A stretch of DNA of 64,000 nt from an uncultured Bacilli bacterium (lineage in GTDB: Bacteria; Bacillota_I; Bacilli_A; RF39; UBA660), in contig CALVUX010000005.1 of assembly GCA_944363715.1 (NCBI GenBank), forward strand, positions 1-64,000. The letters run 5' to 3'. Shown here in pieces: positions 18,708-43,827 of this stretch (positions within the stretch are counted from its first letter, which is position 1; the number at the start of each line of letters is the position of its first letter). A model generated the notes under the pieces. That model was given only the letters and a program-made list of their open reading frames with translations, searched no databases and was not told the DNA's origin. Both the position numbers and the translations under genes were made by a program.

Positions 18708-19046
18708 TTAACGGAAGTTACAACATGAACCTTGGTCGATATTGCAGCATACATTTTCTTCACAACAAGTATATCTAGGGCAATAAGTATGTTTGAAAAT
18801 GTGATGATTAACTATTCTTGTATGGATTGGACATACATGTGGAACTTGATGAACGAAGGTTCTATTTATTTGACGTTGTTGTACTGGTTCCATAATTGGA
18901 GAGTTAGTAGTCATCATTCCCATATTTTGTCCCATACCCATAGTATTACTATTCATATTGATATCAATATTCATATCTTGGTCAACAACATTGTTATTGC
19001 CATCGATAGTAGATGTCATATCAATATCTTGATTATTAAATAACAT
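18708..19046 (-). CDS. CotD-like spore coat protein (putative)
   Basis: A 112-aa protein with an Asn/Met/Asp-rich N-terminal half. The His/Cys-rich C-terminal half reads VPHVCPIHTRIVNHHIFKH followed by CPRYTCCEENVCC. The P-H-x-C-P-x-H-T...VNHHIFKH pattern matches the spore coat protein CotD family, which becomes crosslinked in the inner coat. The Cys clusters could form disulfides. With the YjcZ-like peptides it suggests that sporulation genes are kept. No sporulation sigma promoter was confidently read. Confidence 0.7.
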   Translation of the reverse strand: MLFNNQDIDMTSTIDGNNNVVDQDMNIDINMNSNTMGMGQNMGMMTTNSPIMEPVQQRQINRTFVHQVPHVCPIHTRIVNHHIFKHTYCPRYTCCEENVCCNIDQGSCCNFR

Positions 19047-28644: not shown

Positions 28645-28718
28645 TAATAAATCCTCTTAATAGTAGCCGATAGTAATTATTTACATATAATACTTTGAAC
28701 TGAAAGGAGGATTTTAGT

Positions 28719-29165
28719 TTGAAAAAAACAATTGTTTATATTGTTGTTATTTTAGTTATTTTTGCTTTAGCTTGTGCTGTGTTATTTAACTTTAATAATA
28801 AGAGTGATGATAATGATGAATTAGAGACTGTAAGACTTGCTGAGGTTGCTCATTCTATTTTCTATGCACCTATGTATGTAGCGATTGAAGAAGGTTATTT
28901 TGAAGAAGTTGGAATTGATATTGAACTTAGTCTTGCAAATGGTGCAGATAAAGTAAGTGCTGCTGTTTTATCAGGTGATGCTGATGTTGGTTTTGCAGGA
29001 AGTGAAGCGACTATTTATGTGTATAATGGTGGTGAGAAAGATTATCTTAAGACTTTTGCAAGATTAACTCAAAAAGATGGTTCATTTATTGTAGCGAGAG
29101 AAGATATTAAAGATTTTACACTTGATGATTTAGTTGGTAAGACCATAATTGGTGGTAGAGCAGGT
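28719..29165 (+). pseudogene. ABC substrate-binding protein gene, 5' half, interrupted by element 1
   Basis: The first 149 codons of an NMT1/THI5-like (SsuA/TauA/ThiY-type) periplasmic binding protein. A TTG start at 28719 follows AAAGGAGG at good spacing. A signal/anchor helix (TIVYIVVILVIFALACAVLF) leads into VRLAEVAHSIFYAPMYVAIEEGYF and NGADKVSAAVLSGDADVGFAG. Coding sense is lost after GGRAG at 29165, where element 1 begins; a host-to-element hybrid frame stops a few codons later. The missing half is at 32183-32728. Joining the halves at the shared AGGT core restores a 330-aa protein of normal length. The importer is likely for a thiamine-pyrimidine-, sulfonate- or nitrate-like substrate. 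Confidence 0.9.
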
Positions 29166-29189
29166 CATCGTATGTTAAACTTATAATGT
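29166..29189 (+). repeat. Element 1 left att half-site (inverted repeat, copy 1)
   Basis: Begins CATCGT and contains GTTAAACTTATAAT. It matches the reverse complement of 32155-32178 at 21 of 24 positions and lies directly after the core AGGT. Together the two arms would form a palindromic attP. Confidence 0.8.
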
Positions 29190-29220
29190 TTTTCCTTGAA
29201 TTAAAAGAAACCTATTTAAT

Positions 29221-30411
29221 TTAGGCTTCTTCAATTATTTTCTTTAATTTATTTATTTGTCTTTGCAATATGACACATAGTCTATATATTCTTTTATCAG
29301 AAATATGGGTAATGTGCTGATATTCATGAAGTAAGTTGTCAAAGCACTCTGGAATATCATCTAATTTAGATACATCTATTCTTTTTATATTTCTTACTAC
29401 TTTAATAATTTCATCAAATGGTTTTACCTCGTAGAAAAATCTTCCATTTCCTGATATGATTACTTCATTTTCATCATAATATGGAATGTTTAAAGCCATA
29501 CCATTATCAAATATAGGAGCGACATCTAACCATTTTAGGGTATTAACATCTCTTATAATACCAAAATTATTTAAGTGTCTATCTTCATTCATTATGAGAA
29601 AATCTAAGATATACATATTTTCTACTTTTTCTCTAGCATTTTCAATTCCTTTTTCTTCTAACTTTTTTATATATTCTTCATAGTCATCTGTATTATCATG
29701 CCTTTTCATATCATTTCTTATTTGATAAGCTGTAATAAGTTCGGTATCTTTATTTATAAAACAAGGACATTTAGATACTACAGTATCTTTATATACATCT
29801 AAAGTATATGGTACATGATTAAAATCTAGTCTATCACATATCATAGATGCTAGGACTTCATTAAATGGTTGTAATATTTCATTTTTATAGCCAGACTTAA
29901 GTAAATATCTTGTACCATCTTCAATTATCCAAGCTTTTTTTAACATACCATCAGTAGTATTATTAGGTGTTTTTAAAGATTCTTTACTTGTTATTATTCT
30001 ACTGTTTTTAGATAAAGAAGCTGCCAGAAATTCGGTATAATCAAAATCATTATCAAAAAAATTAATATCATCATATTTTATATTACTATCATAAGGCTTT
30101 AACCAATACTGGTCTGATAAAGATAAACCGAAAGCTTTATCTAATAGTTCAGTTGGGGCACTTATATCTAGACGATGTAATAATAAATCTAATTTATCAC
30201 GCCAATTAGGTATACCTCTTCCTCTAAACCACTCTGATAGATTTGTTCTAAATGGAGTATCATTGATATCATCTTTAATATAAAAACTCTTTAAAATATA
30301 GGGAGCATAATCAATATTTTTAACTTCTATAATTCTATCAAAAAACTTAGAAACTGTATTATATTCTGCAACTAATACTTCTGTATTTTTATTCATTAAA
30401 ATACATTTCAT
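29221..30411 (-). CDS. HipA-like serine/threonine kinase (element 1 cargo)
   Basis: A 396-aa protein counted from the ATG at 30411, which has AAGAAGG 7 nt upstream. Kinase landmarks in order: RYLLKSGY (ATP lysine), FNEVLASMICDRL (Glu of helix C), the catalytic-loop motif LIMNEDRHLNNFGI and the metal-binding motif APIFDNGMAL. This order matches the HipA C-terminal kinase fold. There is no adjacent HipB-like HTH partner, so a toxin role is not shown. Stand-alone HipA-like kinases occur on mobile DNA; here it is the only cargo gene apart from the recombinase. The substrate is unknown. Confidence 0.8.
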   Translation of the reverse strand: MKCILMNKNTEVLVAEYNTVSKFFDRIIEVKNIDYAPYILKSFYIKDDINDTPFRTNLSEWFRGRGIPNWRDKLDLLLHRLDISAPTELLDKAFGLSLSDQYWLKPYDSNIKYDDINFFDNDFDYTEFLAASLSKNSRIITSKESLKTPNNTTDGMLKKAWIIEDGTRYLLKSGYKNEILQPFNEVLASMICDRLDFNHVPYTLDVYKDTVVSKCPCFINKDTELITAYQIRNDMKRHDNTDDYEEYIKKLEEKGIENAREKVENMYILDFLIMNEDRHLNNFGIIRDVNTLKWLDVAPIFDNGMALNIPYYDENEVIISGNGRFFYEVKPFDEIIKVVRNIKRIDVSKLDDIPECFDNLLHEYQHITHISDKRIYRLCVILQRQINKLKKIIEEA

Positions 30412-30471
30412 AACCACACCTTCTTCCTAATGCAATATGTATTATTATACCATATTTCCTTATATTTTTCA

Positions 30472-32025
30472 TTAATATAGCTTAAATTTATAGTGGATTT
30501 CTATAGTTTTATCTTCACTTATAAGTATCTTATTAATTAAGTTTACTAGTAAGGCTCTAGTTGGTTTTTCTAAGGCTAGATATTCATTTATCTTTTCTAA
30601 TATATCTTTATTTGCATCTGCTTTATCAAGATTCGTACTTTCTTTTTCAATAGATTCTATCCTTTTTTTCCAAGAGATTATTTCATCTTTATATTTAGTG
30701 GTTAGGCGATTAAACATCTCTATATCAATATTACCATTTAACTTATCTTCATATACTTTGTCTATATAGGAGTTATTAATTTTAATCTTTTTTTCTAATA
30801 TACTAATTTCATCTTGTTTTTTAACTTTACTATCATTTTTCTTTCTAGCTTCTTCTATCCTTTCTTTAAAGGTAGTGCTATCGACATACTCCTTACACAT
30901 TTTTCTAATCTCCTCTAAAACGAGATTTTCTAGTTTTTTATAATTAAGGCTATGAGGAGTACATAAACCATATTTAGAATGGGCTGTATAATAAGAACAA
31001 TGACAGTAGTATCTTTTACCATCACTACTTTTATTTATTCCTATTTTATGATTACACTCCCTACATACCATAAAACCAGAAAGTAACATAATATTATTGC
31101 CGGTAGGTTTATTTTTGTTTTTCTTTAATAATTCTCCTACTGTATCAAATATTTTTTTATCAATAATCGCTTCATGAGTATTTTCTTTTATTATCCATTC
31201 CTCTTTAGGGGTTCTAATTTCTTTTTTAGACTTATAATTTAACTTTTTTCTTCTTCCTTGAGTCATATTACCAATATATGTTTCATTAGTAAGCATTTCT
31301 TCAATAGTCCTAGGACACCATAGGTTATAGGTAGGATTATTTATATTACGATTTAGATTAGCATAAACACTAGGAGTAGGAATATGTTCTTTTGAGAAGA
31401 TATCTGCTATTTGTCTTGGGCTTTTGCCGGTGTATGCTAAAAAAAATATTTTCTTAATAATTGGTCTAATATTTTCATCAACTATTAATTTATGTTTATC
31501 ATTAGGGTCTTTTAAATAACCATAAGGGGCTTTAAAACCTAAGAACTCTCCTCTTTCCTTTTTGGATTTCAAAACTTTTCTAATCTTTTTAGATGTATCT
31601 TTTAAATAGTAATCATTAAACATTAACTTAAATTGTAAAAACTCTAAACCTGGTGTTTCATGGAGAGTATCAATATCATCGTTTATGGCAATATATCTTA
31701 TACCTTTCTCAGGAAATATTCTTTCAATATACTCCCCCATAGAGATATAGTCTCTTCCCATACGAGATAAATCTTTAGTTATAATAGTATTAACTTTATT
31801 ATTTTCTAAATCTTTAATTAATCTTTTCCAAGAAGGTCTATCAAAATTAGAACCAGTAAAACCATCATCAACATATTCATCTATATAAACTAATTTTTCT
31901 TCTGTTTTCTCTAAAAATATATGTAATAAATCTCTTTGATTTGTGATACTTTCACTTTCTAAGTTGTCACCATCTTCACGAGATAATCTAATATATAAAG
32001 CGACATTAAATGTTTTACTTTTCAT
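30472..32025 (-). CDS. Large serine recombinase, element 1
   Basis: A 517-aa recombinase counted from the ATG at 32025. The N-terminal resolvase domain has the catalytic Ser in ALYIRLSREDGDN, Arg residues in DLSRMGRDYIS, and the EYVDDGFTGSNFDRPSWKRLI segment. The recombinase domain follows (GFKAPYGYLKDPNDKHKLIVDE...). The zinc-ribbon-like region has CRECNHKIG and a later Cys pair (HCSYYTAHSKYGLC), and a coiled coil spans about 380-460. Such enzymes integrate and excise DNA at short att sites without target duplication. A tiny ORF overlaps its 5' end. It is the integrase expected to act on the att sites at 29162-29189 and 32155-32182. Confidence 0.95.
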   Translation of the reverse strand: MKSKTFNVALYIRLSREDGDNLESESITNQRDLLHIFLEKTEEKLVYIDEYVDDGFTGSNFDRPSWKRLIKDLENNKVNTIITKDLSRMGRDYISMGEYIERIFPEKGIRYIAINDDIDTLHETPGLEFLQFKLMFNDYYLKDTSKKIRKVLKSKKERGEFLGFKAPYGYLKDPNDKHKLIVDENIRPIIKKIFFLAYTGKSPRQIADIFSKEHIPTPSVYANLNRNINNPTYNLWCPRTIEEMLTNETYIGNMTQGRRKKLNYKSKKEIRTPKEEWIIKENTHEAIIDKKIFDTVGELLKKNKNKPTGNNIMLLSGFMVCRECNHKIGINKSSDGKRYYCHCSYYTAHSKYGLCTPHSLNYKKLENLVLEEIRKMCKEYVDSTTFKERIEEARKKNDSKVKKQDEISILEKKIKINNSYIDKVYEDKLNGNIDIEMFNRLTTKYKDEIISWKKRIESIEKESTNLDKADANKDILEKINEYLALEKPTRALLVNLINKILISEDKTIEIHYKFKLY

Positions 32026-32116
32026 ATTCACTTTCCATATAATAGTCTATTAAAAACTCTTCTATTATTTGTTGTAATGTCTTTCCATTTTCATTAAATA
32101 TATTTACAATTTTCAA
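32015..32116 (-). CDS. Tiny ORF upstream of recombinase 1 (33 aa)
   Basis: A TTG at 32116 follows TAGGTGG at good spacing. The product is a short charged peptide (KIVNIFNENGKTLQQIIEEF... ending YMESEYEK). Its stop lies just inside the recombinase ORF, suggesting translational coupling. A similarly small ORF precedes recombinase 2. It is supported by position and ribosome site only. Confidence 0.55.
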   Translation of the reverse strand: MKIVNIFNENGKTLQQIIEEFLIDYYMESEYEK

Positions 32117-32154
32117 TTTAACCACCTACTTAATTTTATGTATTTAGATTAAAT

Positions 32155-32178
32155 ATATTATAAGTTTAACTAACGATG
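32155..32178 (-). repeat. Element 1 right att half-site (inverted repeat, copy 2)
   Basis: The reverse complement begins CATCGT and matches 29166-29189 at 21 of 24 positions. It abuts the right AGGT core at 32179-32182. A TATAAT-like box on the minus strand within this repeat may drive the recombinase operon. Confidence 0.8.
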
Positions 32179-32182
32179 AGGT

Positions 32183-32728
32183 GGTATGCCTGAGATGACT
32201 CTTGAATGGGCTTTAAGCGATGCTGGAATTGACCCTAAGAAGGATGTTAATATTGATACTTCTGTAGCATTTTCTGCTATGAGTAGTGCTTTCATTGGAG
32301 GGACAGGTGACTTTGTCGCTTTGTTTGAACCTAATGCTTTAGAGTTAGAAAAAGAAGGTTATGGTTATGTTGTTGCAAGTTTAGGTGAACTTGGTGGTGT
32401 TGTTCCTTATACTGCTTTCTTTGCTAGAGATAGTTATTTAAATGAGAATAAAGAACTAATCGATAACTTTGAGAAAGCGATTCAAAAGGGAATAGACTTT
32501 GTTTATAATAGTTCTGATAAAGAAGTTGCTAAAGCGATAGTAGATCAATTTCCTGATACATCAATTGATGATTTAACAAAGATTGTAAAACGTTATAGAT
32601 CTATTGATGCATGGTCTAAAACAACTGAATTTACCGAAGAAGAATTTGACCACTTACAAGATATTATGATTAATGCAGGAGAATTAGATAGTAAAGTTCC
32701 ATTTAGTGACTTGATGTATGAAAACTAA
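32183..32728 (+). pseudogene. ABC substrate-binding protein gene, 3' half
   Basis: The last 181 codons of the interrupted binding protein, resuming after the AGGT core with GMPEMTLEWALSDAGIDPKKDVNID. It has the hinge and second-lobe segments typical of the family (GDFVALFEPNALELEKEGYGYVV, YTAFFARDSY). It has no signal peptide and cannot by itself make a functional lipoprotein or anchored binding protein. It overlaps the ATPase start at 32718, as expected in an importer operon. Confidence 0.9.
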
Positions 32729-33137
32729 TATATTAGAAATTACACATTTATCTAAAAATTATCAAGATAAAAGTGGTGAAATAGAAGCGATTAAAGATAT
32801 TAATCTTAGTGTTAATGAGGGAGAGTTTATTGTAATAGTAGGACCTAGTGGATGTGGTAAAAGTACACTGTTATCAATACTTGCTAATTTAGAGACTAAA
32901 TCAGGAGGTAATATAAAGTTTTCTAAAGATGATATAAAGCTTGGTTATATGCTTCAAAAAGATAGTTTATTTCCTTGGCTTAATATTTTAGATAACTGTC
33001 TTTTGGGTCTTAAATTAAAAGGCAAAGTAAGTATGGAAGATAAAGCTTATGTCTTAAAGCTTCTTGATACTTATGGATTAAGTGAGTTTATTGATAAGTT
33101 TCCTAGAAGTTTATCTGGTGGTATGAGACAAAGAGTT
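32718..33137 (+). pseudogene. ABC importer ATPase gene, 5' half, interrupted by element 2
   Basis: 140 codons of a nitrate/sulfonate/taurine-type ABC ATPase. They include Walker A (GPSGCGKSTL), the Q-loop (GYMLQKDSLFPWLNILDN) and the signature LSGGMRQRV. Coding sense ends at the signature, where a short hybrid frame (RVG then stop) begins element 2. The remainder is at 42705-43037. Joining at the AGTTG core gives a 250-aa ATPase of normal length. It overlaps the end of the binding-protein gene. Confidence 0.9.
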
Positions 33138-33139
33138 GG

Positions 33140-33159
33140 TTGAATGTTGTTAAGACACA
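33140..33159 (+). repeat. Element 2 left att half-site (inverted repeat)
   Basis: The sequence TTGAATGTTGTTAAGACACA matches the reverse complement of 42679-42698 at 18 of 20 positions. It lies one base inside the AGTTG core. Confidence 0.8.
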
Positions 33160-33189
33160 AAAAGAACCTAGTAAAAATTAATTACTAAG

Positions 33190-33708
33190 TTATTTATATT
33201 CTTCAAATATATCTATATCTCTATTACCAAATTCTCTTGTATATTCATCTTTACAATTTTCTTTATACCAAGATACTTTATAATATATTTTTTCTTTAAC
33301 TTTATCTATATTGATATTAGAGTTTTTTTCGATAGCAAGTAAGACAGGTATAATATCATTACCACAGATACAAATATCATAATTAACAATACGTTCTCTT
33401 CCATATGATGTTTTTTCTTTCTTTAGTTTTTCTTTATATGATATATATAAATAATCATCTTTAAATATATGATTTTCTAAAAAATATGTATAGTCTATAT
33501 CAACAACTCCACTTGTTTTTAAATATCCTGTCATATATCGTATAGTGCCACTCCTAAATTCAATATAATCATCTGGAAGATCTTCTTTTTTTATTTTTGT
33601 CTTATACATTGCCTTAGAATATAAATATTCATTGTTAGTATCAACACTTCTTATACAACCTTTACCAAATTTCCCTTTGGTATAAAGGAATGAATTTAAT
33701 CTTTTCAT
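33190..33708 (-). CDS. Unknown protein in element 2 (172 aa)
   Basis: A soluble charged protein counted from the ATG at 33708, which has GGAGG upstream. It has several Tyr/Lys-rich stretches (KTKIKKEDLPDDYIEFRSGTIRYMTGYLKTS) and no signal peptide. I do not recognise a family. It is the outermost gene at the left end of element 2, and its position suggests accessory cargo. Confidence 0.6.
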   Translation of the reverse strand: MKRLNSFLYTKGKFGKGCIRSVDTNNEYLYSKAMYKTKIKKEDLPDDYIEFRSGTIRYMTGYLKTSGVVDIDYTYFLENHIFKDDYLYISYKEKLKKEKTSYGRERIVNYDICICGNDIIPVLLAIEKNSNINIDKVKEKIYYKVSWYKENCKDEYTREFGNRDIDIFEEYK

Positions 33709-33799
33709 ATTTGTTACCTCCTCATTTGATATAACAGTATCACTAAAGTAACTTAATGTCAAGCAGTTTTATTTTACTCATAACAAAAAAAGAAATAGA

Positions 33800-34021
33800 C
33801 TAATATCTACTTCTATGTTTTATTCTTTTTACTCTAACATGTGTATTACTAGCTGTATCAGTATTTCCTTGATTCAAAAATGCAGGATTTACTTTATACA
33901 TGTCTAATTCTACTTTGTCTGAATGTTCCATTTTCCTTTTTATATCTTTATCATATTCTGCCATATTATGATTAATATTTTCTAATATTATGTTAAGTTC
34001 TTCCTGTGTAAGTTTTCCCAT
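33800..34021 (-). CDS. Unknown small protein (73 aa) in element 2
   Basis: A small charged protein whose ATG at 34021 has AGGAGG upstream. The N-terminal half is helical and acidic (EELNIILENINHNMAEYDKDIKRKMEHSDKVELDMY); the C-terminus is basic (HVRVKRIKHRSRY). It sits just downstream of copA on the same strand, so it may be the last gene of the metal operon. The family was not recognised. Confidence 0.6.
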   Translation of the reverse strand: MGKLTQEELNIILENINHNMAEYDKDIKRKMEHSDKVELDMYKVNPAFLNQGNTDTASNTHVRVKRIKHRSRY

Positions 34022-34070
34022 AATGTACCTCCTCTGCCTATTAGTTTAACATATAATTTATAATTTGCAA

Positions 34071-36251
34071 TTACAAATTCATCTTACTAAGTCTTAGGGA
34101 GTTTATAACTACAGTTAAACTACTTATAGTCATAGCAATAGAGGCAAACATAGGACTCATACTTATTCCATAGTTTTCTAATAACCCAATTGCGATTGGT
34201 ATCATAAGTAAGTTATAAAAGAAAGCCCAGAATAAGTTTTCTTTAATGATGAGATATGCTTTTTTACTTATTTTAATAAGGTCTAAAATATTAGAAATAT
34301 CGTTATTCATAAGGATTACATCAGCTGAGTCCATAGCAACATCTGTTCCATCATTAACACTTATACCAATAGTTGAATTTATTAAAGCAGGTGCATCATT
34401 TATACCATCTCCTACCATTATTACTTTTTTACCTTTGTTAGTTAAGTCTTTAATAGTACTTGCTTTCTTCTTTGGTAAGACATTAGATATTACTTTAGTT
34501 ATACCTAACTCTTCTGCAATTATCTCTGCAGTTACTTCATTATCTCCTGTTAACATAATTACTTCAATATTATTATCTTTAAACCTAGTTATAACATCTT
34601 TTATATTAGATCTAACTGTATCTTTTACACCTATTAGACCAATAACAATACCTTCTTCTATTACATAGATAATACTACAGCCATTATTTATTAAATTATT
34701 ATAGTCTTCTTTATGATTATCTTTTATTTTTAAATCTTTTAATAAAGTGTTATTTCCTAAATAATAAACTTTGTTATTAATACTTGCTTTTATTCCTTTA
34801 CCGTTTATTGTTTTAAAATCAGTTACAACTAACTTCTTTTTAACTTTAAAAGCAGTACTTATTGGATGAGAAGAACTCTTTTCTATATTAGATACAATAT
34901 TAATTAAATCATTATCTTTATAGTTAGAATAATTATATGTCTTATAAATATTTAAAGTTCCATTTGTAAGGGTTCCTGTTTTATCAAAGACAATAGTATC
35001 AATATCTTTCGCTTTCTCTAAGACTTCACTATTTCTTAAGAATAATCCTTTCTTAGCACATAATCCATTACTTACAACTACAACAAGTGGTACGGCAAGA
35101 CCTAAGGCACAAGGACAAGCGACTACTAAGACTGTTACCATATGAATTAGTGATTCTTCTAGGGGTAGTCCTATAAGTATCTGGATTATAAATGCTAGAA
35201 AAGCGATTAATAAGATAACTGGAACGAAGATACCACTTACTTTGTCGGCAAGACGTTGTATTTTAGTTTTGGTATTAGTGGATTCTACTACTAGTTTTAC
35301 TATTTCTGAGATGGTAGAGTCTTTCCCTATTTTCTTGGCAGTATATTCAATAAGTCCGTCATAACTAATAGAACCGGCGATAACAGTTGCACCTTCTTCT
35401 TTTAAAACTGGGGCACTTTCTCCTGTGATAAAACTTTCATTAACATAGGTTTTACCCTTAGTAACAGTGCCATCAACAGCGATTTTCTCTCCTGCTTTAC
35501 AAATTAATGTATCTCCTACTTCTACTTCATCGATAGTTACTTTTAACTCTTTATCATTCTTTTTAACTATGGCATAAGTTGGAGTTATTTGGACTAGTTT
35601 TCTTATAGCATCTTTAGTTTTATCTTTACTAGAGTCTTCTAATACTCTACCTAGTTTAATAAAGTAAATTACCATACAAGTAGATTCAAAATATAGATTA
35701 TGAAGTAAAGCATTATTTCCTTTTAATATATTTATATAACTATAAAGACTATAGAGAAAACTAAAGATGACACTAAACATTACTAAAGTATCCATATTAG
35801 GCATTTTATGAAGTAAATTCTTTATACCACTTTTAATAATGTCTAATCCATAGATTAAATAAACTAACGTAATTATCAACAGAGTTGTGGATAAAATAAG
35901 AGGATGATTATGATTAAGATATGGGATACTTGGTAAGTTTAACATATCTCCCATAGATATATACATTACAAAGATAATAAGTAAACCTAAGACTATTAGT
36001 TTTATCTTATCAGTTTTGTTAGTAACTTTATCTTCTATTCCTTTGAACTCTCCTAAACTAGTAAAACCTGCTTCTTTAATAAATCTTTCTATATCTTTAA
36101 CAGTTGTATTTTCATAGTAAATAGTAGCGATAGATAAGACTAGATTAACAGTTGCACTAGCAATACCATCTTGTTTGTTTAGATACTTTTCTAGTCCTGA
36201 TGAACAAGCACTGCAAGTCATTCCACCTATTTTTAAAACTATTTTTTTCAT
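34071..36251 (-). CDS. copA: Copper-type P1B ATPase (CopA-like)
   Basis: A 726-aa membrane pump. One N-terminal HMA domain has the GGMTCSACSSGLEK metal motif (about residues 8-20). It has eight expected transmembrane helices with the CPC motif in VVACPCALGLAVPL, the phosphorylation motif DKTGTLTNG, TGES, and VGDGINDAPAL. CPC with ALGLAVP is characteristic of Cu+-exporting P1B-1 ATPases, and the C-terminal membrane segments with conserved Tyr/Asn and Met/Ser (LLENYGISMSPMFASIAMTISS) agree. It expels copper from the cytoplasm. It follows the ZntA-like gene by 2 nt in one operon. Confidence 0.93.
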   Translation of the reverse strand: MKKIVLKIGGMTCSACSSGLEKYLNKQDGIASATVNLVLSIATIYYENTTVKDIERFIKEAGFTSLGEFKGIEDKVTNKTDKIKLIVLGLLIIFVMYISMGDMLNLPSIPYLNHNHPLILSTTLLIITLVYLIYGLDIIKSGIKNLLHKMPNMDTLVMFSVIFSFLYSLYSYINILKGNNALLHNLYFESTCMVIYFIKLGRVLEDSSKDKTKDAIRKLVQITPTYAIVKKNDKELKVTIDEVEVGDTLICKAGEKIAVDGTVTKGKTYVNESFITGESAPVLKEEGATVIAGSISYDGLIEYTAKKIGKDSTISEIVKLVVESTNTKTKIQRLADKVSGIFVPVILLIAFLAFIIQILIGLPLEESLIHMVTVLVVACPCALGLAVPLVVVVSNGLCAKKGLFLRNSEVLEKAKDIDTIVFDKTGTLTNGTLNIYKTYNYSNYKDNDLINIVSNIEKSSSHPISTAFKVKKKLVVTDFKTINGKGIKASINNKVYYLGNNTLLKDLKIKDNHKEDYNNLINNGCSIIYVIEEGIVIGLIGVKDTVRSNIKDVITRFKDNNIEVIMLTGDNEVTAEIIAEELGITKVISNVLPKKKASTIKDLTNKGKKVIMVGDGINDAPALINSTIGISVNDGTDVAMDSADVILMNNDISNILDLIKISKKAYLIIKENLFWAFFYNLLMIPIAIGLLENYGISMSPMFASIAMTISSLTVVINSLRLSKMNL

Positions 36252-36253
36252 AA

Positions 36254-38107: not shown

Positions 38108-38108
38108 A

Positions 38109-38333
38109 TTAAACCTCCTCGATAGTAACATCTGGTTCTTCTTTTCTTATTACTTTCTTAATTTGTTTTAGGGCTGTATTTAAATTATCTTCATTACAAC
38201 TAAAAGTTAATCTTTCCATCATAAAACTAATAGAGACATTTTCTATTAAATCTATTTTTCTTAAAGACTCTTCTAAAAGATTAGCACAGTTAGCACAGTC
38301 TAATCCTTCTATTTTAAATTTATAATCTTTCAT
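38109..38333 (-). CDS. Stand-alone heavy-metal-associated (HMA) domain protein
   Basis: A 74-aa ferredoxin-like HMA domain: FKIEGLDCANCANLLEESLRKI with the metal-binding CxxC in GLDCANC. It sits 1 nt before the ZntA-like ATPase, which lacks its own HMA domain, so it probably delivers metal to the pump or is the detached N-terminal domain of an ancestral fused pump. Confidence 0.88.
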   Translation of the reverse strand: MKDYKFKIEGLDCANCANLLEESLRKIDLIENVSISFMMERLTFSCNEDNLNTALKQIKKVIRKEEPDVTIEEV

Positions 38334-38348
38334 ATTCTTTCCTTCTTT

Positions 38349-38711
38349 CTATCCTTTATGATTAATATGTTCTAGTCCTATTTCAAATAATTTAACAATA
38401 TGGTCATCATCTAGAGTGTAATATACTTCTTTACCACTTCTTCTGCATTTAACTATGCCACTTCTTCTAAGGGTTGCTAATTGATGAGAAACACTTGACT
38501 TAGTCATATTTAAAACATTGGCTAAGTCACAGACACACATTTCGTCTTGATCAAGTGCAAAAAGGATTCTACATCTTGTTGTATCACCTATTAGTTTAAA
38601 TAAGTCTGCTAGATGATTAAAAGTATTTTCTGAAGGCATTTTATTTAATACCTTATCTACTGCTCCCTTATGAATAATATTACAATCACACGAAAATTCA
38701 TTTCTAGACAT
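38349..38711 (-). CDS. cadC: CadC/SmtB-type ArsR metal-responsive repressor
   Basis: A 120-aa winged-helix regulator. The HTH has MCVCDLANVLNMTKSSVSHQLATLRRSGIVKCRRSGKEVYY. Metal-site residues match CadC: an N-terminal Cys pair (FSCDCN) with the CVC motif (alpha-3N site for Cd/Pb) and a C-terminal DDDHIVKLFEIGLEHINH cluster (alpha-5 zinc site). Metal binding should release it from the promoter at 38770-38799, where two TTGA/TCAA inverted repeats overlap the core promoter. It is the first gene of the metal operon, so autoregulation is expected. Confidence 0.9.
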   Translation of the reverse strand: MSRNEFSCDCNIIHKGAVDKVLNKMPSENTFNHLADLFKLIGDTTRCRILFALDQDEMCVCDLANVLNMTKSSVSHQLATLRRSGIVKCRRSGKEVYYTLDDDHIVKLFEIGLEHINHKG

Positions 38712-38743
38712 ATCATCACATCCTATTAATATTATATGTTTAT

Positions 38744-38763
38744 AGTTGAATTATTACTCAACT
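38744..38763. promoter_or_regulatory. Probable CadC operator O2
   Basis: A 20-bp imperfect palindrome with arms AGTTGA and TCAACT, placed just downstream of the -10 box of the metal operon. The TTGA/TCAA arms resemble CadC/CzrA sites. The binding is inferred. Confidence 0.55.
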
Positions 38764-38769
38764 ATCTTT

Positions 38770-38799
38770 ATTATAGTTGAATAGACGTTCAATTGTCAA
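38770..38799 (-). promoter_or_regulatory. Metal-operon promoter with operator O1 in its spacer
   Basis: On the minus strand TTGACA (38794-38799) and TATAAT (38770-38775) are separated by 18 bp. The spacer holds a second inverted repeat, TTGAA-n6-TTCAA (38777-38792). A repressor bound there would block polymerase. It drives cadC, HMA, zntA-like and copA. Confidence 0.8.
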
Positions 38800-38870
38800 G
38801 GCTATTTTATTCTATTTTCTTGCAAGTCTTATTAGAGAGTGATACAATTCTTTAAATGGAAGGTGAATTT

Positions 38871-39488
38871 ATGAAGCGATATAAACAAAGTGAAATAGAA
38901 GAAGTTGCAAATGTTCTTAAAAATGATGGTGTTATTAGTGTTCCTACTGATACTGTTTATGGTATATGTGCTAGGATTAATTCAAGTAAGGCTTATCTTA
39001 AGTTAGTTAGTGTTAAAAATCGTCCTTCTACTAAGTCTTTTCCTGTTATGTGTAGTGATATAGAACAAATTAAAAGTATTGCCATTATTGATGAAAATGC
39101 TCTTAAGTTAATTAAAGCTTTTATGCCAGGACCTATTACTTTAGTCTTAAATAAAAGACCTGATGTACTTTCATATATTAATAATGCAGGTGCACGAGAA
39201 ACAGATGAACTTGCTATTAGGATGGCTCCTACCCCATTTTTAAAAGAATTAATTAAAGAAGTTGGTAGTCCTTTATTTTTAACGAGTGCTAATAAATCGG
39301 GGATGGATGTATGTAAAAGTTTAGATGATATAGAGAAAGAATGCCCTACTCTTGATGGTATGGTTATGGGTGATGTATCTTTTGGAGAAGCTAGTACGAT
39401 TGTTGATTGTACTGGTAATGATATAAAGATTCAAAGACAAGGTCCTATTAGTGAAGATGAGATTATAAAGGTACTTGTTAATTTATAG
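38871..39488 (+). CDS. tsaC: Threonylcarbamoyl-AMP synthase (TsaC/YwlC/Sua5 type)
   Basis: A 205-aa YrdC-domain enzyme counted from the ATG at 38871, which has GGAAGGTG upstream. Signature stretches: LKNDGVISVPTDTVYGICARI, VKNRPSTKSFPVMCSDIEQ, IKAFMPGPITLVLNK, ELAIRMAPTPFLKELI, GSPLFLTSANKSGMDV and IVDCTGNDIKIQRQGPIS. It makes the carbamoyl-adenylate used for t6A at position 37 of tRNA. The partners TsaD, TsaB and TsaE lie at 50.2-52.8 kb. It lacks the Sua5 C-terminal domain. It is inside element 2, which is unusual for an often essential gene. Confidence 0.95.
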   Translation: MKRYKQSEIEEVANVLKNDGVISVPTDTVYGICARINSSKAYLKLVSVKNRPSTKSFPVMCSDIEQIKSIAIIDENALKLIKAFMPGPITLVLNKRPDVLSYINNAGARETDELAIRMAPTPFLKELIKEVGSPLFLTSANKSGMDVCKSLDDIEKECPTLDGMVMGDVSFGEASTIVDCTGNDIKIQRQGPISEDEIIKVLVNL

Positions 39489-39516
39489 GTTAATCTTAAT
39501 AACAAATTTAAAGTAA

Positions 39517-39555
39517 AATCCACCATTACTATTAACTATTGGTGGTTTTTTCTTT
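39517..39555 (+). terminator. tsaC terminator
   Basis: CCACCA and TGGTGG form a stem with a 14-nt loop, followed by T6. Confidence 0.7.
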
Positions 39556-39580
39556 AAATTTCTAATATATCTTAAGTATT

Positions 39581-39622
39581 AAATCACTTCTCTTTTTAAT
39601 ATAGATTAATGAGGAGTGATTT
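39581..39622 (+). promoter_or_regulatory. Hairpin sequestering the ribosome site of the recombinase-2 operon
   Basis: AAATCACTTCTC (39581-39592) pairs with GAGGAGTGATTT (39611-39622) over 12 bp including one G-U. The 3' arm contains the GAGGAG ribosome site for the small ORF at 39626. A T run follows, so the element may also act as a terminator. Either use would keep the recombinase silent under read-through transcription. Confidence 0.6.
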
Positions 39623-39625
39623 TTT

Positions 39626-39745
39626 ATGTGTTCTTATAATGTTTTATGTGAATATGATAAATCTATTAGTGATGATGAGTTAAAAAAAATAATTAATGAT
39701 AAATTATTTAGAATTATTACTACTCTTGAGATGAATTTAGAATGA
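39626..39745 (+). CDS. Tiny ORF upstream of recombinase 2 (39 aa)
   Basis: The ATG at 39626 follows GAGGAG. The peptide (CSYNVLCEYDKSISDDELKK... ending LEMNLE) is acidic/basic and probably helical. Its stop overlaps the recombinase start as ATGA, indicating translational coupling. The gene is the counterpart in position of the tiny ORF of element 1. Its function is unknown. Confidence 0.6.
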   Translation: MCSYNVLCEYDKSISDDELKKIINDKLFRIITTLEMNLE

Positions 39746-41301
39746 AAGAGATCTTTAGGGTTGCAATTTATTTAAGACTTTCTATTGAAGATAAAGATAA
39801 ATTAAATAGAACAGACGATAGTGAATCTATTAAAAATCAAAGACATATGTTAATGGAGGTTGTTAATAGCAATACTAGTTACAATTTAATTGGTGAATAC
39901 TGTGATGAAGATTTATCTGGGGCAGGTACTTTTAGACCAGAGTTTGAAAGATTAATTAAGGACTGTGAAAATGGTAAGATTGATATTGTTTTGTGTAAGA
40001 GTCAATCTAGGTTTTCTCGTGATATGGAAATTGTAGAGAGATATATTAATAATAAGTTTAAAGAGTGGAATGTTAGATTTATTAGCTTATCTGATAATGC
40101 TGATACAGAAAATCCTGGTAATAAGAAGTCTAGACAGATTAATGGTCTTGTTAATGAATGGTATTTAGAGGATGTTTCTAATAATATTAGAAGTGCTTTT
40201 AATTCTAAGATGAAACAAGGTGAGTTTATCTCCCCTTTCGCTCCTTTTGGTTATTTAGTAGATAGTTCTGATAATAATAAGTTAGTTATTGATGAAGTAG
40301 CTTGTTTAGTCGTTAAAGATATATTTAATCTATATTTAAGGGGCTATGGCTACTCTGCTATTGCTAAATGCTTAAATGATAAAAACATACCTAGTCCATC
40401 ACTTCATAAATATAGACAAGGGATAAAGTTAAATATTGTTAGTAATAAAGCACGTGAAGAGATTAAATGGAATAGTAATGCTATTAAGACAATACTTAAA
40501 AATGAAGTTTATTTAGGTAAGCTTGTACAAGGTAAAAGAACTACTATTAGTTATAAGAATCATAAAATTATTAATAAAGATAAGTGTTTATGGATAAGTT
40601 ATCCTAATACTCATGAAGCGATTATTGATGAAGATACTTTTAATAAAGTACAACTTGAGATGAAGAATAGAACTAAGCCTAGGGGTAATAGTACCGTTCA
40701 TTTGTTTTCTGGTAAAGTTTTTTGTTTAGAGTGTGAGCATTATTTAAGAAAGAAAAACTCTTCAAAGCATCAATATTTAGTATGTTCTAATAATATTATC
40801 TGCTCTAATAAGTCATCTATTAGATATGATAAATTAGAGAGTATTGTTCTTATTTATATTAATAAACTATTAGATAAATTTTATGATGATGTGTTATTAA
40901 AAGAAAATGTAAATAAAAAATATAAGGAAATATATAAAGAAAAATTAATATCTTTAGAAAGTGAGTTAGTTAACATTAATAAAAAAATAGATGAATCTGA
41001 AAAGTATTTAAAGAATCTTTATGAAGATAAAGTAAATGGTGTTGTTTCTCTAGAGATGTTTAATAGTTTAGTTAGTAATTATGAAGATAATAAAGCTAGA
41101 CATTCTAAACAGTTAGATGCTGTTAATAAAAAGATTAGCATTTATAAAGAGAACATTAAAAATTTTGATGAGGAAATAATCTCTAAATATAAAAAGTTAG
41201 GTAATCTTAATAGAGTTATTGTTAATGAGTTTATAGATAAGATTTATGTTGGTGAAATTAGAGATAATATTAGAAATATAAAAATAAAATGGAATTTTTG
41301 A
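39742..41301 (+). CDS. Large serine recombinase, element 2
   Basis: A 519-aa recombinase. The resolvase domain has the catalytic Ser in VAIYLRLSIEDKDK, CKSQSRFSRDMEIV with the active-site Arg residues, and CDEDLSGAGTFRPEFERLI. The recombinase domain has SPFAPFGYLVDSSDNNKLVIDE. A zinc-ribbon pair is CLECEH with a later CSNNIICSN. A C-terminal coiled coil spans about 390-470. Its att sites should be the inverted repeats at the ends of element 2. It is related to, but clearly different from, the recombinase of element 1. Confidence 0.95.
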   Translation: MKEIFRVAIYLRLSIEDKDKLNRTDDSESIKNQRHMLMEVVNSNTSYNLIGEYCDEDLSGAGTFRPEFERLIKDCENGKIDIVLCKSQSRFSRDMEIVERYINNKFKEWNVRFISLSDNADTENPGNKKSRQINGLVNEWYLEDVSNNIRSAFNSKMKQGEFISPFAPFGYLVDSSDNNKLVIDEVACLVVKDIFNLYLRGYGYSAIAKCLNDKNIPSPSLHKYRQGIKLNIVSNKAREEIKWNSNAIKTILKNEVYLGKLVQGKRTTISYKNHKIINKDKCLWISYPNTHEAIIDEDTFNKVQLEMKNRTKPRGNSTVHLFSGKVFCLECEHYLRKKNSSKHQYLVCSNNIICSNKSSIRYDKLESIVLIYINKLLDKFYDDVLLKENVNKKYKEIYKEKLISLESELVNINKKIDESEKYLKNLYEDKVNGVVSLEMFNSLVSNYEDNKARHSKQLDAVNKKISIYKENIKNFDEEIISKYKKLGNLNRVIVNEFIDKIYVGEIRDNIRNIKIKWNF

Positions 41302-41355
41302 AGAAAAAATTGATTTAACTGCATATTATATTAGTAGAGATGGTAAAGATGAAGC

Positions 41356-41376
41356 GTGATAGATATCACGTTTTTT
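41356..41376 (+). terminator. Terminator after recombinase 2
   Basis: CGTGAT pairs with ATCACG across a 4-nt loop, followed by T6. Confidence 0.65.
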
Positions 41377-41499
41377 AATTGTAGTAGTGCTTTTGTATTG
41401 AATATACCAGTTAACTTGGGAAGATTATCTAAAACAAGGAATATTTTGGAAGAAAGGAATGGATATCTAAGTGTTAAACAAATTAATCCGAGAGTTAAA

Positions 41500-41528
41500 T
41501 TAACTGCACGATATTTTAGTGCAGTTAA
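41500..41528. repeat. Perfect inverted repeat (10-bp arms)
   Basis: TTAACTGCAC and GTGCAGTTAA flank a 9-nt spacer. There is no T run, so it is more likely an operator or a protein-binding site than a terminator. Confidence 0.7.
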
Positions 41529-41574
41529 CAATAAAGTATACTAAATATGAAAAATTCTCTAGAACCATATGTTC

Positions 41575-41599
41575 AGTTGTACACAAAATGTGTACAACT
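41575..41599. repeat. Perfect inverted repeat (10-bp arms)
   Basis: AGTTGTACAC and GTGTACAACT flank AAAAT. It lies about 200 bp before the BRO-like gene and may be an operator. Confidence 0.7.
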
Positions 41600-41697
41600 A
41601 AAATACGACTTAAAAAGATAGAGAAATTATATCAATAATGCTTTAAATGACAAAACTGGATATTTTTAGTTGCCTAGTATTACTAGATGACTAAATG

Positions 41698-41796
41698 AAA
41701 TTAAAATTAGCTAATGGTAAATGTTATAGTACTGATGTATATGATATTGAAGATATGTTTAAAGTTATTAAATCAATTTTGTTTTTAAGTTACTAG
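41698..41796 (+). pseudogene. Decayed BRO/DinD-like fragment
   Basis: The frame KLKLANGKCYSTDVYDIEDMFKVIKSI resembles the internal segment of the neighbouring BRO-like protein (LKLKAKDGKMRNTDTLDTKGILRLIESV). It has no start or remaining domains. It may be a remnant of an earlier copy; the similarity is weak. Confidence 0.3.
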
Positions 41797-41824
41797 TATG
41801 ATTATCAAGAAAGGAAGGAAAATT

Positions 41825-42688
41825 ATGAAACAAAATAAATTAGAAACAATTACCAAATTATTTGAAGGAAAGGAAATCAGAAGTGTATGGGATTCTGAAA
41901 AAGAAGAATATTATTTTAGTGTAGTTGATGTTATTAGTATTTTAACCGATAGTAAAGATTCTAGTGATTATTGGACCACTCTTAAAAGAAGATTAACTAA
42001 TGATGAAGGAAGTCAACTTCCGACAATTTGTCGGAGTTTGAAACTAAAAGCTAAAGATGGCAAAATGAGAAATACAGATACTTTAGACACCAAAGGTATT
42101 TTAAGATTAATAGAGTCTGTTCCTAGTCCTAAAGCTGAACCTTTTAAATTATGGTTAGCAGAATTAGGTAAAGAAAAAATTGATGAAGTTTTTGATCCTG
42201 AGATTGCTATTAAAAGAGCAATTAATTACTATCGTAATCGTGGTTATGATGATAAATGGATTAAAGCTAGATTAAATGGAATATTAGATAGAAATAAATT
42301 AACAGATATATGGAAAGAAAGTGGTATTAATGAAGGTTATGAATATGCAATACTGACTAATGACATTTATAAAGAATGGTCCGGTATGACTGCTAAAGAA
42401 TATAAAGAGTTTAAAGGGCTTAGAAAAGAATCTTTAAGAGATAATATGAGTGATATTGAGGTGTTACTTGCTGATATTGGGGAGATTACTACTCGTGAGC
42501 TTGCTAAGAAACATAAACCTTATGGATTAAATGAAAATAGAAAGATTGCTAAAGCAGGAGGTGAAGTTGCTAGTAATACGAGAAAAGATATAGAAGAAAA
42601 GCTTTGTGAAGATGTTATTAGTAAAGATAATAAACTTAATTATCAATATATAGATGATAATAAAAAGTTAGATAATACTGTGCCTTAA
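41825..42688 (+). CDS. BRO-N/DinD-like protein (element 2)
   Basis: A 287-aa protein counted from the ATG at 41825, which follows a GGAAGGAA site. The BRO-N-like domain (about 1-110) has IRSVWDSEKEEYYFSVVDVISILTDSKDSSDYWTTLKRRL and SVPSPKAEPFKLWLAELGKEKIDEVFDPEIA. The C-terminal half matches the DinD-like family: AINYYRNRGYDDKWIKARL...TDIWKESGINEGYEYAILTNDIYKEWSGMTAKEYKEFKGL and KKHKPYGLNENRKIAKAGGEVA. These proteins are common on phages and integrative elements, and a DNA-damage or antirepressor role is assumed. Its stop lies inside the right inverted repeat. Confidence 0.85.
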   Translation: MKQNKLETITKLFEGKEIRSVWDSEKEEYYFSVVDVISILTDSKDSSDYWTTLKRRLTNDEGSQLPTICRSLKLKAKDGKMRNTDTLDTKGILRLIESVPSPKAEPFKLWLAELGKEKIDEVFDPEIAIKRAINYYRNRGYDDKWIKARLNGILDRNKLTDIWKESGINEGYEYAILTNDIYKEWSGMTAKEYKEFKGLRKESLRDNMSDIEVLLADIGEITTRELAKKHKPYGLNENRKIAKAGGEVASNTRKDIEEKLCEDVISKDNKLNYQYIDDNKKLDNTVP

Positions 42689-42698
42689 CAATATTCAA
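42679..42698 (-). repeat. Element 2 right att half-site (inverted repeat)
   Basis: The reverse complement TTGAATATTGTTAAGGCACA matches 33140-33159 at 18 of 20 positions. It lies two bases before the AGTTG core at 42701-42705. Confidence 0.8.
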
Positions 42699-42704
42699 AC
42701 AGTT

Positions 42705-43037
42705 GCTCTAATCAGGACACTTGCTACTAAACCTGATATATTACTTTTAGATGAGCCTTTTTCGGCATTAGATGCAATGACTAGAGTAATGCTTGCAGAT
42801 GATGTTTATAAGATGGTTAAAGACTTAGGTAAAACTGCTATTATGGTAACTCATGATTTGTCGGAAGCTTTGAGCGTCGGTGATAAAGTAGTTGTACTTA
42901 CGAAAAGACCTTGTGTTGTTAAAAAGATTTATGATATTAATTATAAGAATCGCTCTACTCCATTTAATAATAGAAAAGAAAAAGAATTTAATTACTATTA
43001 TGAAAAGATATGGAGAGATTTAGATGTCAAACTATAG
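42705..43037 (+). pseudogene. ABC importer ATPase gene, 3' half
   Basis: The last 110 codons of the ATPase, resuming at the AGTTG core with ALIRTLATKPDILLLDEPFSALDAMTR (Walker B and D-loop) and VTHDLSEALSVGDKVVVLT (H-loop). It lacks Walker A and cannot work alone. It overlaps the permease start. With the 5' half at 32718-33137 it makes a complete ATPase. Confidence 0.9.
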
Positions 43038-43827
43038 TGAGGAACATAAAGAATTTCTTAAAAAGAAGAAAAAAGAGAAAATTATTGTTATTAGTTTTCA
43101 AATATTAATATTACTAGTGTTCATTTTAGGATGGGAACTATTAGCAAGATTTAATCTTATTAATACTTTTCTTTTATCTAGTCCTAGTCTAGTACTTAAA
43201 ACTTTAGGAAGTCTATTCACTAATAATGATTTATTAGTACATATAGGTATTACTTTATATGAGACTGTAGTTAGCTTTTTAGTAGTTACAATTATTTCCT
43301 TGTTAGTCTCTACTCTATTTTGGTTTTCTAAGAGGTTAGCAAAGATACTTGATCCTTATTTAACTGTTTTAAATTCGCTACCTAAAGTGGCTCTTGGGCC
43401 TTTAATTATTATCTGGGTAGGTGCTAGTACTAATTCTATTATCTTTATGGCTTTATTAATCTCTTTATTCTTGTCTATTATAAACGTTTATCATAATTTT
43501 AAAGAAACTGATAATAACTATATTACTTTACTTAGAAGTTTAGGAGCTAGTAAGTTACAGATATTTATGAAAGCAGTTATACCATCTAATCTATCTAATA
43601 TTATTAATAATCTCAAAATTAATGTGAGCATGTGCTATATAGGGGTCATAATGGGGGAATTGCTTGTATCAAAAAAAGGATTAGGATATCTAATAATGTA
43701 TGGTACACAAGTATTTAATATAGACCTTGTCATTGCTTCTGTTATTGTTCTAGGTGTCTTAGCTTTCTTATTCTATTATCTTATTTGTTTACTTGAGAAA
43801 TTTATACAAAAGAAAACTGTTAACTGA
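43024..43827 (+). CDS. ABC importer permease (nitrate/sulfonate/taurine type)
   Basis: A 267-aa membrane protein with about six transmembrane helices. The EAA-type coupling motif is LLRSLGASKLQIFMKAVIPSNLSNIINNLKINV, and GELLVSKKGLGYLIMYGTQVFNIDLVIASVIVL is the late conserved segment of SsuC/TauC/ThiX-like permeases. It is the only intact gene of the interrupted importer operon. It overlaps the ATPase end by 14 nt. Confidence 0.92.
   Translation: MSNYSEEHKEFLKKKKKEKIIVISFQILILLVFILGWELLARFNLINTFLLSSPSLVLKTLGSLFTNNDLLVHIGITLYETVVSFLVVTIISLLVSTLFWFSKRLAKILDPYLTVLNSLPKVALGPLIIIWVGASTNSIIFMALLISLFLSIINVYHNFKETDNNYITLLRSLGASKLQIFMKAVIPSNLSNIINNLKINVSMCYIGVIMGELLVSKKGLGYLIMYGTQVFNIDLVIASVIVLGVLAFLFYYLICLLEKFIQKKTVN

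Follow-up and report, generated by a model that had tools for sequence, protein, structure and literature searches.

Why should a single ABC importer operon carry two different mobile elements, each lodged within a coding sequence? The question is raised by positions 28,719 to 43,827 of a stretch of 64,000 nucleotides (the window: positions 1 to 64,000, forward strand, of contig CALVUX010000005.1, assembly GCA_944363715.1) from an uncultured Bacilli bacterium of the GTDB lineage RF39; UBA660. The operon has three genes, for a binding protein of the NMT1/SsuA type (Pfam NMT1, E 4e-25), an ATPase and a permease; element 1 (3,017 bp) interrupts the first and element 2 (9,567 bp) the second, and both are large serine recombinase (LSR) elements, whose recombinases we call REC1 and REC2. 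Our best explanation, which we hold at a probability of roughly two in three, is that this is a late-sporulation (sigma-K-type) importer operon of the mother cell, and that its elements are of the skin, SPbeta and gin kind and are precisely excised in the mother cell. The parts of the operon are as follows.

28666..28692, + strand: operon promoter, with GC at the -35 position, N16 and the -10 CATATAATA (from cross-species comparison, 50 non-redundant relatives)
28719..29164, + strand: binding-protein gene, 5' part (NMT1/SsuA type)
29163..32179, no strand assigned: element 1, 3,017 bp, core GG at 29163 and 32180 (alignment with intact relatives, and computed)
32180..32728, + strand: binding-protein gene, 3' part
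32718..33136, + strand: ABC ATPase gene, 5' part
33135..42701, no strand assigned: element 2, 9,567 bp, core GT at 33135 and 42702
42702..43037, + strand: ABC ATPase gene, 3' part
43024..43827, + strand: ABC permease gene, intact here and split at codon ~208 in relatives

A sequence-only reading of this stretch had held that the binding-protein and ATPase genes are each split and that their halves rejoin in frame, which proved correct: the rejoined binding-protein gene is open over 330 codons and, aligned with intact relatives, its protein reads GGRAG/GMPEMTLE across the junction (slash), while the rejoined ATPase gene is open over 250 codons, with its junction in the ABC signature region (LSGGMRQR/V). 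The same reading had placed both junctions at short direct repeats. For the ATPase this stands, as the crossover GT (33135-33136 and 42702-42703) lies inside the repeat claimed; for the binding protein it does not, as alignment with intact relatives sets the crossover at GG (29163-29164, attL; 32180-32181, attR) and rules out the proposed core GTATG, which lies several bases to the right and on rejoining yields 331 codons, one too many relative to the GG junction. The attachment (att) sites have short direct and inverted repeats, as in the sporulation gene-intervening elements. When the elements are circularised, imperfect palindromic attP sites form around the cores, with complementary arm bases at 22/25 positions for element 1 and 20/25 for element 2, compared with a 99th percentile of 0.62 and a maximum of 0.77 for 5,000 random pairs of 25-mers from the region; such palindromic arms are the ordinary design of an LSR attP.

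To place the insertions among relatives, 148 related genomes were searched with the joined binding-protein sequence and 90 with the joined ATPase sequence, the genus itself comprising 35 genomes. The binding-protein gene is split at codon ~150 in 14 of the 32 scorable genomes of the genus, with element sequence running past the junction in 13; across all 35 genomes, it is split at codon ~200 in 2 and read through in 15, while one (G014) spans codon 150 on a contig that ends at codon 174, one (G023) is partial and two (G017, G022) gave no match. The ATPase gene is split at codon ~141 in 23 of 30 scorable genomes (G012 being scored from a 3' half with element sequence before it), intact in 7 and not found in 5, and the permease gene is split at codon ~208 in 7 of the 23 in which it could be read; in two genomes (G027 and G034) all three genes are interrupted. 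The sequence-only reading had suggested seeking the intact operon in related genomes; both the binding-protein and the ATPase sites are found unoccupied in relatives. Outside the genus there are extra sites at binding-protein codon ~78 (G049) and ATPase codon ~200 (G042), and the relatives together add four insertion codons to the two of the window, giving six positions over three genes. Because identical junctions recur in many species and in separate assemblies, we could rule out that the arrangement is a chimera or misassembly of a metagenome-assembled genome.

The recombinases responsible are diverse. REC2 is 35% identical to REC1, and the LSRs adjoining binding-protein codon ~200 and permease codon 208 are only 24-28% identical to either. 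Of the 149 Recombinase-domain matches in the 35 genomes, 30 or more lie in this operon (19 REC2 and 11 REC1), a count that omits those at sites other than the REC1 and REC2 sites, and the species hit at the same codons are separated by a pooled proportion of synonymous differences (pS) of 0.27-0.29 in their ATPase genes. One further locus (L172) combines a REC1-type insertion in the binding-protein gene with an insertion of the REC2 type (63% identical) in the ATPase gene. Two side observations concern the same genes: two contigs (G034:C2 and G023:C35) both stop at binding-protein codon ~111, possibly a further position of breakage or insertion, and one genome bin has two ATPase 3' halves, each preceded by element sequence (G006:C28 and G006:C53; L076 and L077), probably from two strains.

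How often each recombinase targets such genes had been left as a question, and for REC1 it has an answer. We examined the best 80 of 205 loci with REC1 relatives in the genome collection: where the recombinase is at least 43% identical to REC1, a piece of the binding-protein gene lies within 1.5 kb at 42 of 44 loci, and where it is less than 43% identical, at 1 of 36. Of the two remaining loci in the first group, one (L161) is on a contig that ends in the recombinase; the other is L174. REC1 is dedicated to this binding-protein gene, and, with the recurrence of the same codons across the genus, this bears out the earlier suspicion that two recombinases in one operon are no coincidence. In the viral collection IMG/VR, REC1 relatives are at most 41% identical, except for partial matches of 52% (L273) and 46% (L274). 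At the ATPase gene, the 30 bases next to the core on the attL side are conserved (majority fraction 0.92-0.99) and the next 40 are not (0.53-0.59); on the attR side there is no such drop in conservation beyond the core-proximal bases.

Are the interrupted genes still maintained? The claim that the host coding sequence is undecayed holds genus-wide: five segments of host sequence were scored (in 31, 29, 28, 26, and 23 genomes), and none contains an internal stop. In a 20-species clade in which all 20 scorable species have the ATPase insertion, the pooled omega (dN/dS) of the two ATPase halves is 0.143 and 0.113 (190 pairs), and that of the binding-protein halves is 0.136 and 0.156 (55 pairs of split species). 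These values are similar to the medians for intact genes, 0.126 and 0.105 for the binding protein (78 and 66 pairs) and 0.136 and 0.083 for the ATPase (only 3 pairs), and the halves are under purifying selection. In a neutral simulation of the ATPase gene on the 20-species tree, which assumed the insertion on every branch, equal base changes and no indels, a mean of 19.7 of the 20 tips acquired a stop and none of 500 runs was stop-free. Stops flagged outside the genus, within the matches of G041 and G049, were considered as possible decay and rejected, since in the pieces inspected (17 loci) the only ones fall on the junction itself (G041, codon 198) or close the gene (G049, permease codon 264).

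Two other accounts of the locus meet their evidence here. The first is that the two halves of each gene yield separate polypeptides which associate into a functional split protein, and this would agree with the conservation of both halves; however, by eye the 3' half of the binding protein has no signal peptide, no ATG, GTG or TTG occurs in the 3' ATPase frame ahead of the Walker B region (its first start is at 42777), split positions vary between species, and intact relatives exist, leaving this account hardly credible. The second is that these are selfish LSR elements in conserved motifs, too recent or turning over too fast for decay and lacking any regulated excision. The trees of REC2 and of the cargo (ZntA1) disagree with the host tree, from which it follows that the elements move between species and that the ages of the insertions are uncertain, a point that also counts against our own explanation, and in G015 a different REC1-type element (74% identical) occupies the same binding-protein site. 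Yet the insertion is present throughout the 20-species clade with omega at about 0.11-0.14 and halves free of stops, and the element genes are about as diverged as rpoB (median ratios of synonymous divergence, dS, 0.75-1.70, with a rank correlation that is weak for several genes, 0.60 to -0.13). Were the ATPase wholly inactive in 20 of 20 species, an omega near 0.1 would be difficult to account for, unless excision regularly restores the gene. Fresh or dead insertions therefore explain the data poorly, and we consider the selfish account quite improbable.

If excision restores the operon, in which cells might it do so? The promoter offers a lead. We collected 97 sequences 5' of the binding-protein gene, 50 of them non-redundant (five further loci gave no candidate), and chose the -10 box by the pattern NATANNNT(A/G) before the ribosome site; the boxes chosen were mostly (C/A)ATATAATA. 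The resulting consensus is (A/C)(A/G)C-N16-(C/A)ATANNNTA, the box being also written (C/A)ATANNNT(A/G). The AC or GC stands 16 bases from the -10 in 37 of the 50, and any other spacing from 10 to 23 is found in at most 8; the base before it is A or C in all 37, and TTG precedes it in none of them. The rRNA promoters of the window read TTGACA, and promoters of the TTGAC type are over-represented in its genome (17 vs. 2.1 in shuffles). In C. difficile, sigma-K promoters have AC at the -35 and sigma-E promoters ATA, a -10 of CATATAAT is described for one sigma-K promoter, and ytlC belongs to the sigma-K regulon (PMC3789822); a B. subtilis study lists the ABC transporter genes ytlA, ytlC, and ytlD under sigma-K (PMC3416734). 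The operon promoter resembles these published sigma-K promoters, and, judged by transporter type and promoter likeness, the operon is probably the counterpart of B. subtilis ytlA-ytlC-ytlD. None of the 8 plasmid matches listed was a named ytlC homologue; they had generic ABC names or no name.

The genomes of the genus, presumably Candidatus Onthousia, which we take to belong to RF39, have a SpoIVA match above cut-off in 35 of 35 cases and a Spo0A match in 30 of 35, and by this gene content these uncultured gut bacteria are probably spore-forming. A published analysis predicts RF39 to be capable of spore formation (PMC10868615). Elsewhere in the window, a small Met/Asn-rich open reading frame (ORF) at 18708-19046 has AC-N16-AATATCTTA upstream and no match to a hidden Markov model (HMM), and may be a late spore coat gene.

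LSRs have entered other genes of the genus as well. The sporulation gene spoIVA is split at codon ~400 in two genomes (G024:C1 and G029:C5; L310 and L312), where an LSR separates the halves and the junctions have CATAT in common, and in a third (G011:C106; L313) it is cut at codon ~120 beside an LSR, the 3' part alone being seen. We looked at the neighbours of 20 LSR loci outside the operon, a hand-chosen and non-random set (G029 and G011 included) in which neighbours were called by HMM or by eye and at most of which one gene half only was located. They comprise 2 SpoIVA genes, 8 genes of a LysM-amidase type and 1 probable further one, 1 collagen-like gene, 1 Cys/His-rich CotD-like fragment (a call with no HMM match behind it), 1 lipoprotein-like gene, and 2 apparent tRNA genes, which we presume to be such from their pattern; 4 loci had no assigned neighbour. 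Among the LysM-amidase calls, two (L318 and L327) match Amidase_3 and LysM, the two pieces of a third (L331) match LysM only, and five were made by matching sequence. With its roughly three insertion points (L318, L327, L331, and others), this gene, in which Amidase_3 is combined with numerous LysM domains, appears to be a second hotspot for LSRs. The collagen-like gene likewise has a promoter of the form AC-N16-AATAAACTA, and the amidase, collagen-like, and CotD-like genes may act in sporulation. A broader proposition is that in Candidatus Onthousia and its relatives sporulation includes wholesale programmed DNA assembly, with dedicated LSR elements in several mother-cell genes (the ytl-like importer, spoIVA, the LysM-amidase, and a collagen-like gene of spore-surface type) and several independent excisions, up to three per operon, needed for the late program; we judge the odds of this to be even.

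The sequence-only reading had also proposed a reversible switch, with importer-positive and importer-negative cells. Its premise that the halves are functionally maintained stands; excision confined to the terminal mother cell is better supported. In a non-developmental version the elements would be excised infrequently or upon stress while cells are growing, in the manner of active lysogeny or phase variation, so that both kinds of cell coexist. Purifying selection on the halves would suit it, as would the sister species that differ in the state of the binding-protein gene (the host tree, a single tree from rpoB and operon genes combined by a quick method, requires at least 7 changes of state for the binding protein and 3 for the ATPase). 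It would also suit the contigs that end at att cores: in G025 and G050 contigs end and restart exactly at the binding-protein core, with overlaps of GGA and GG, and one G055 contig ends at the permease core. Such ends, which count in favour of our own explanation too, are as expected if joined and split alleles coexist, although two different elements at one site would look alike. What this version leaves unexplained are a promoter of the AC-N16-CATATAATA type and the LSR elements inside spoIVA, and we regard it as unlikely.

Excision in the mother cell, as we propose it, would run as follows. The LSR of each element would recognise a conserved coding motif of the importer operon, and the small ORF just 5' of each LSR probably encodes its directionality factor. 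During vegetative growth the binding-protein and ATPase genes would stay split; in the mother cell, precise excision of the elements would rebuild the operon. As the mother cell then dies, the germ line would retain the elements while selection keeps the halves intact.

Besides the mobility of the elements, several results weigh against this proposal. No attP of either element was found in the 35 genomes at up to 3 mismatches, its exact pattern was in none of the viral contigs, and in the binding-protein search we noticed no genome that held a split copy alongside an intact one; the circle and the excised allele that the sequence-only reading had hoped to see were thus absent from the genomes and viral contigs searched, and excision is a step that we infer. 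In G025 the split of the binding-protein gene is visible solely as contigs stopping at the core, and no close relative of REC1 was found in that genome. Among 169 ORFs in the stretches examined of the window's genome, the strict motif MAC-N16-(C/A)ATANNNTA is not enriched (2 vs. 1.4 in shuffles), so the case for the promoter rests on cross-species conservation, with a -10 that was itself picked by pattern; a looser motif, allowing A or G in the -35 pair, gave 7 vs. 1.9. The -10 of the operon is also compatible with the sigma-A TATAAT, and its AC coincides in position with that of TTGACA. To the SigK model the best matches fall just short of the cut-off, with 288.8 bits for this genome against 298.65.

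The two elements differ in what they carry besides their recombinases.

29221..30417, - strand: HipA-like protein of 398 aa, element 1 (HipA_C E 1.3e-5, below the Pfam cut-off; PADLOC PDC-M03A E 3e-17)
30472..32031, - strand: REC1, large serine recombinase of 519 aa (Resolvase, Recombinase and Zn ribbon)
32015..32116, - strand: small ORF that overlaps the start of REC1, a candidate for an accessory or directionality factor (ORF read by eye)
34071..38333, - strand: element 2 cargo, two heavy-metal P-type ATPases and an ORF with a metal-binding domain
38349..38711, - strand: element 2 cargo, ArsR/SmtB family regulator (above cut-off)
38856..39488, + strand: element 2 cargo, L-threonylcarbamoyladenylate synthase (Sua5/TsaC; TIGR00057 above cut-off)
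39626..39745, + strand: small ORF of 39 aa that overlaps the start of REC2, a candidate for an accessory or directionality factor
39742..41301, + strand: REC2, large serine recombinase of 519 aa
41798..42688, + strand: Bro-N domain protein, element 2 (PADLOC PDC-S13)

Small ORFs precede both LSRs of the window, and similar ones precede several REC1 relatives. A sigma-E type promoter for the small ORF and REC1 was considered and set aside as a hint only: many REC1 loci have a CATAAAAT-like box before the ribosome site, with an indistinct -35 and little distance to the start codon. The 170 bases 5' of REC2 showed no sigma-K-like pattern. A PHROGs scan of 6 element proteins found none of the phage structural genes that would mark a temperate prophage; the categories matched were integrase, invertase, transposase, transcription regulation, and unknown, and 2 of the 6 had no match. 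The cargo at 29221-30417 and 41798-42688 matches two candidate defence models of PADLOC, PDC-M03A and PDC-S13. The Sua5/TsaC gene of element 2 (t6A synthesis) is the sole PF01300 match of the whole genome, and PF01300 is matched in 21 of 23 genomes of the genus with the ATPase insertion vs. 2 of 7 with an intact ATPase. At another locus (L105, 11859-15890 of G000:C6) a reverse-transcriptase-like ORF has as neighbours a small ORF predicted by eye to be helical and a large one that resembles a target gene, and the group may be a diversity-generating retroelement.

How do these elements compare with known systems? Known sporulation gene-intervening elements include skin (sigK), SPbeta (spsM), vfbin, vrin, and gin (gerE), and the skin of C. 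difficile requires for excision its own directionality factor, CD1234 (PMC5595907, PMC4191935, PMC5025042); yin (yabG) is a further such element. Like skin, SPbeta, and gin, the elements here are serine-recombinase elements with inverted and direct repeats at their att sites, which split a gene whose frame is restored by joining, in a host that is a spore-former by gene content; and as with CD1234 in C. difficile skin, a candidate accessory ORF lies beside each LSR. Unlike them, they interrupt up to three genes per operon at six sites across relatives, the genes are those of an importer, and their excision is one that we infer. In the known sporulation rearrangements considered here, each interrupted gene holds a single element, and a genome has one or two genes of this sort.

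Interruption elements of cyanobacteria enter more than one gene of a single pathway, and do so at several positions (PMC4874684). The present elements resemble those of heterocyst-formers (nifD, nifH, nifK, fdxN, hupL) in bearing recombinases and in occupying several fixed positions in one functional group; they differ in phylum, in cell type, and in that the genes are not for nitrogen fixation. The hosts of the relatives are Bacilli, Tenericutes, and the like, not cyanobacteria with XisA/C/F, and XisF, although the best NCBIfam model for the recombinases of the window, scores below its cut-off. Active-lysogeny prophages also insert reversibly into host genes, as in hlb of S. aureus. The comK gene of Listeria is another such site. 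The present elements would share that reversible insertion, unlike those prophages having no structural genes among the ORFs scanned and several elements per operon. The open-access literature searched yielded no earlier account of elements of this kind, whether in a ytl-type importer or in the genus, and several elements per operon is best read as a new variation on the sporulation intervening elements.

The significance of the finding lies in one operon being targeted at six codon positions by recombinases whose mutual identity falls as low as 24%, with other probable mother-cell genes of the same genus also hit. If our explanation is correct, about 30 related species would form a natural series in which the gain, loss, and selection of programmed excision elements could be followed, and genes of a terminal cell would be the rule for where such parasites can live. 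It would also provide a range of LSRs that are sequence-specific and have known targets in coding sequence, and would hint that sporulation genes in gut metagenomes, being split, may be miscalled as absent or broken.

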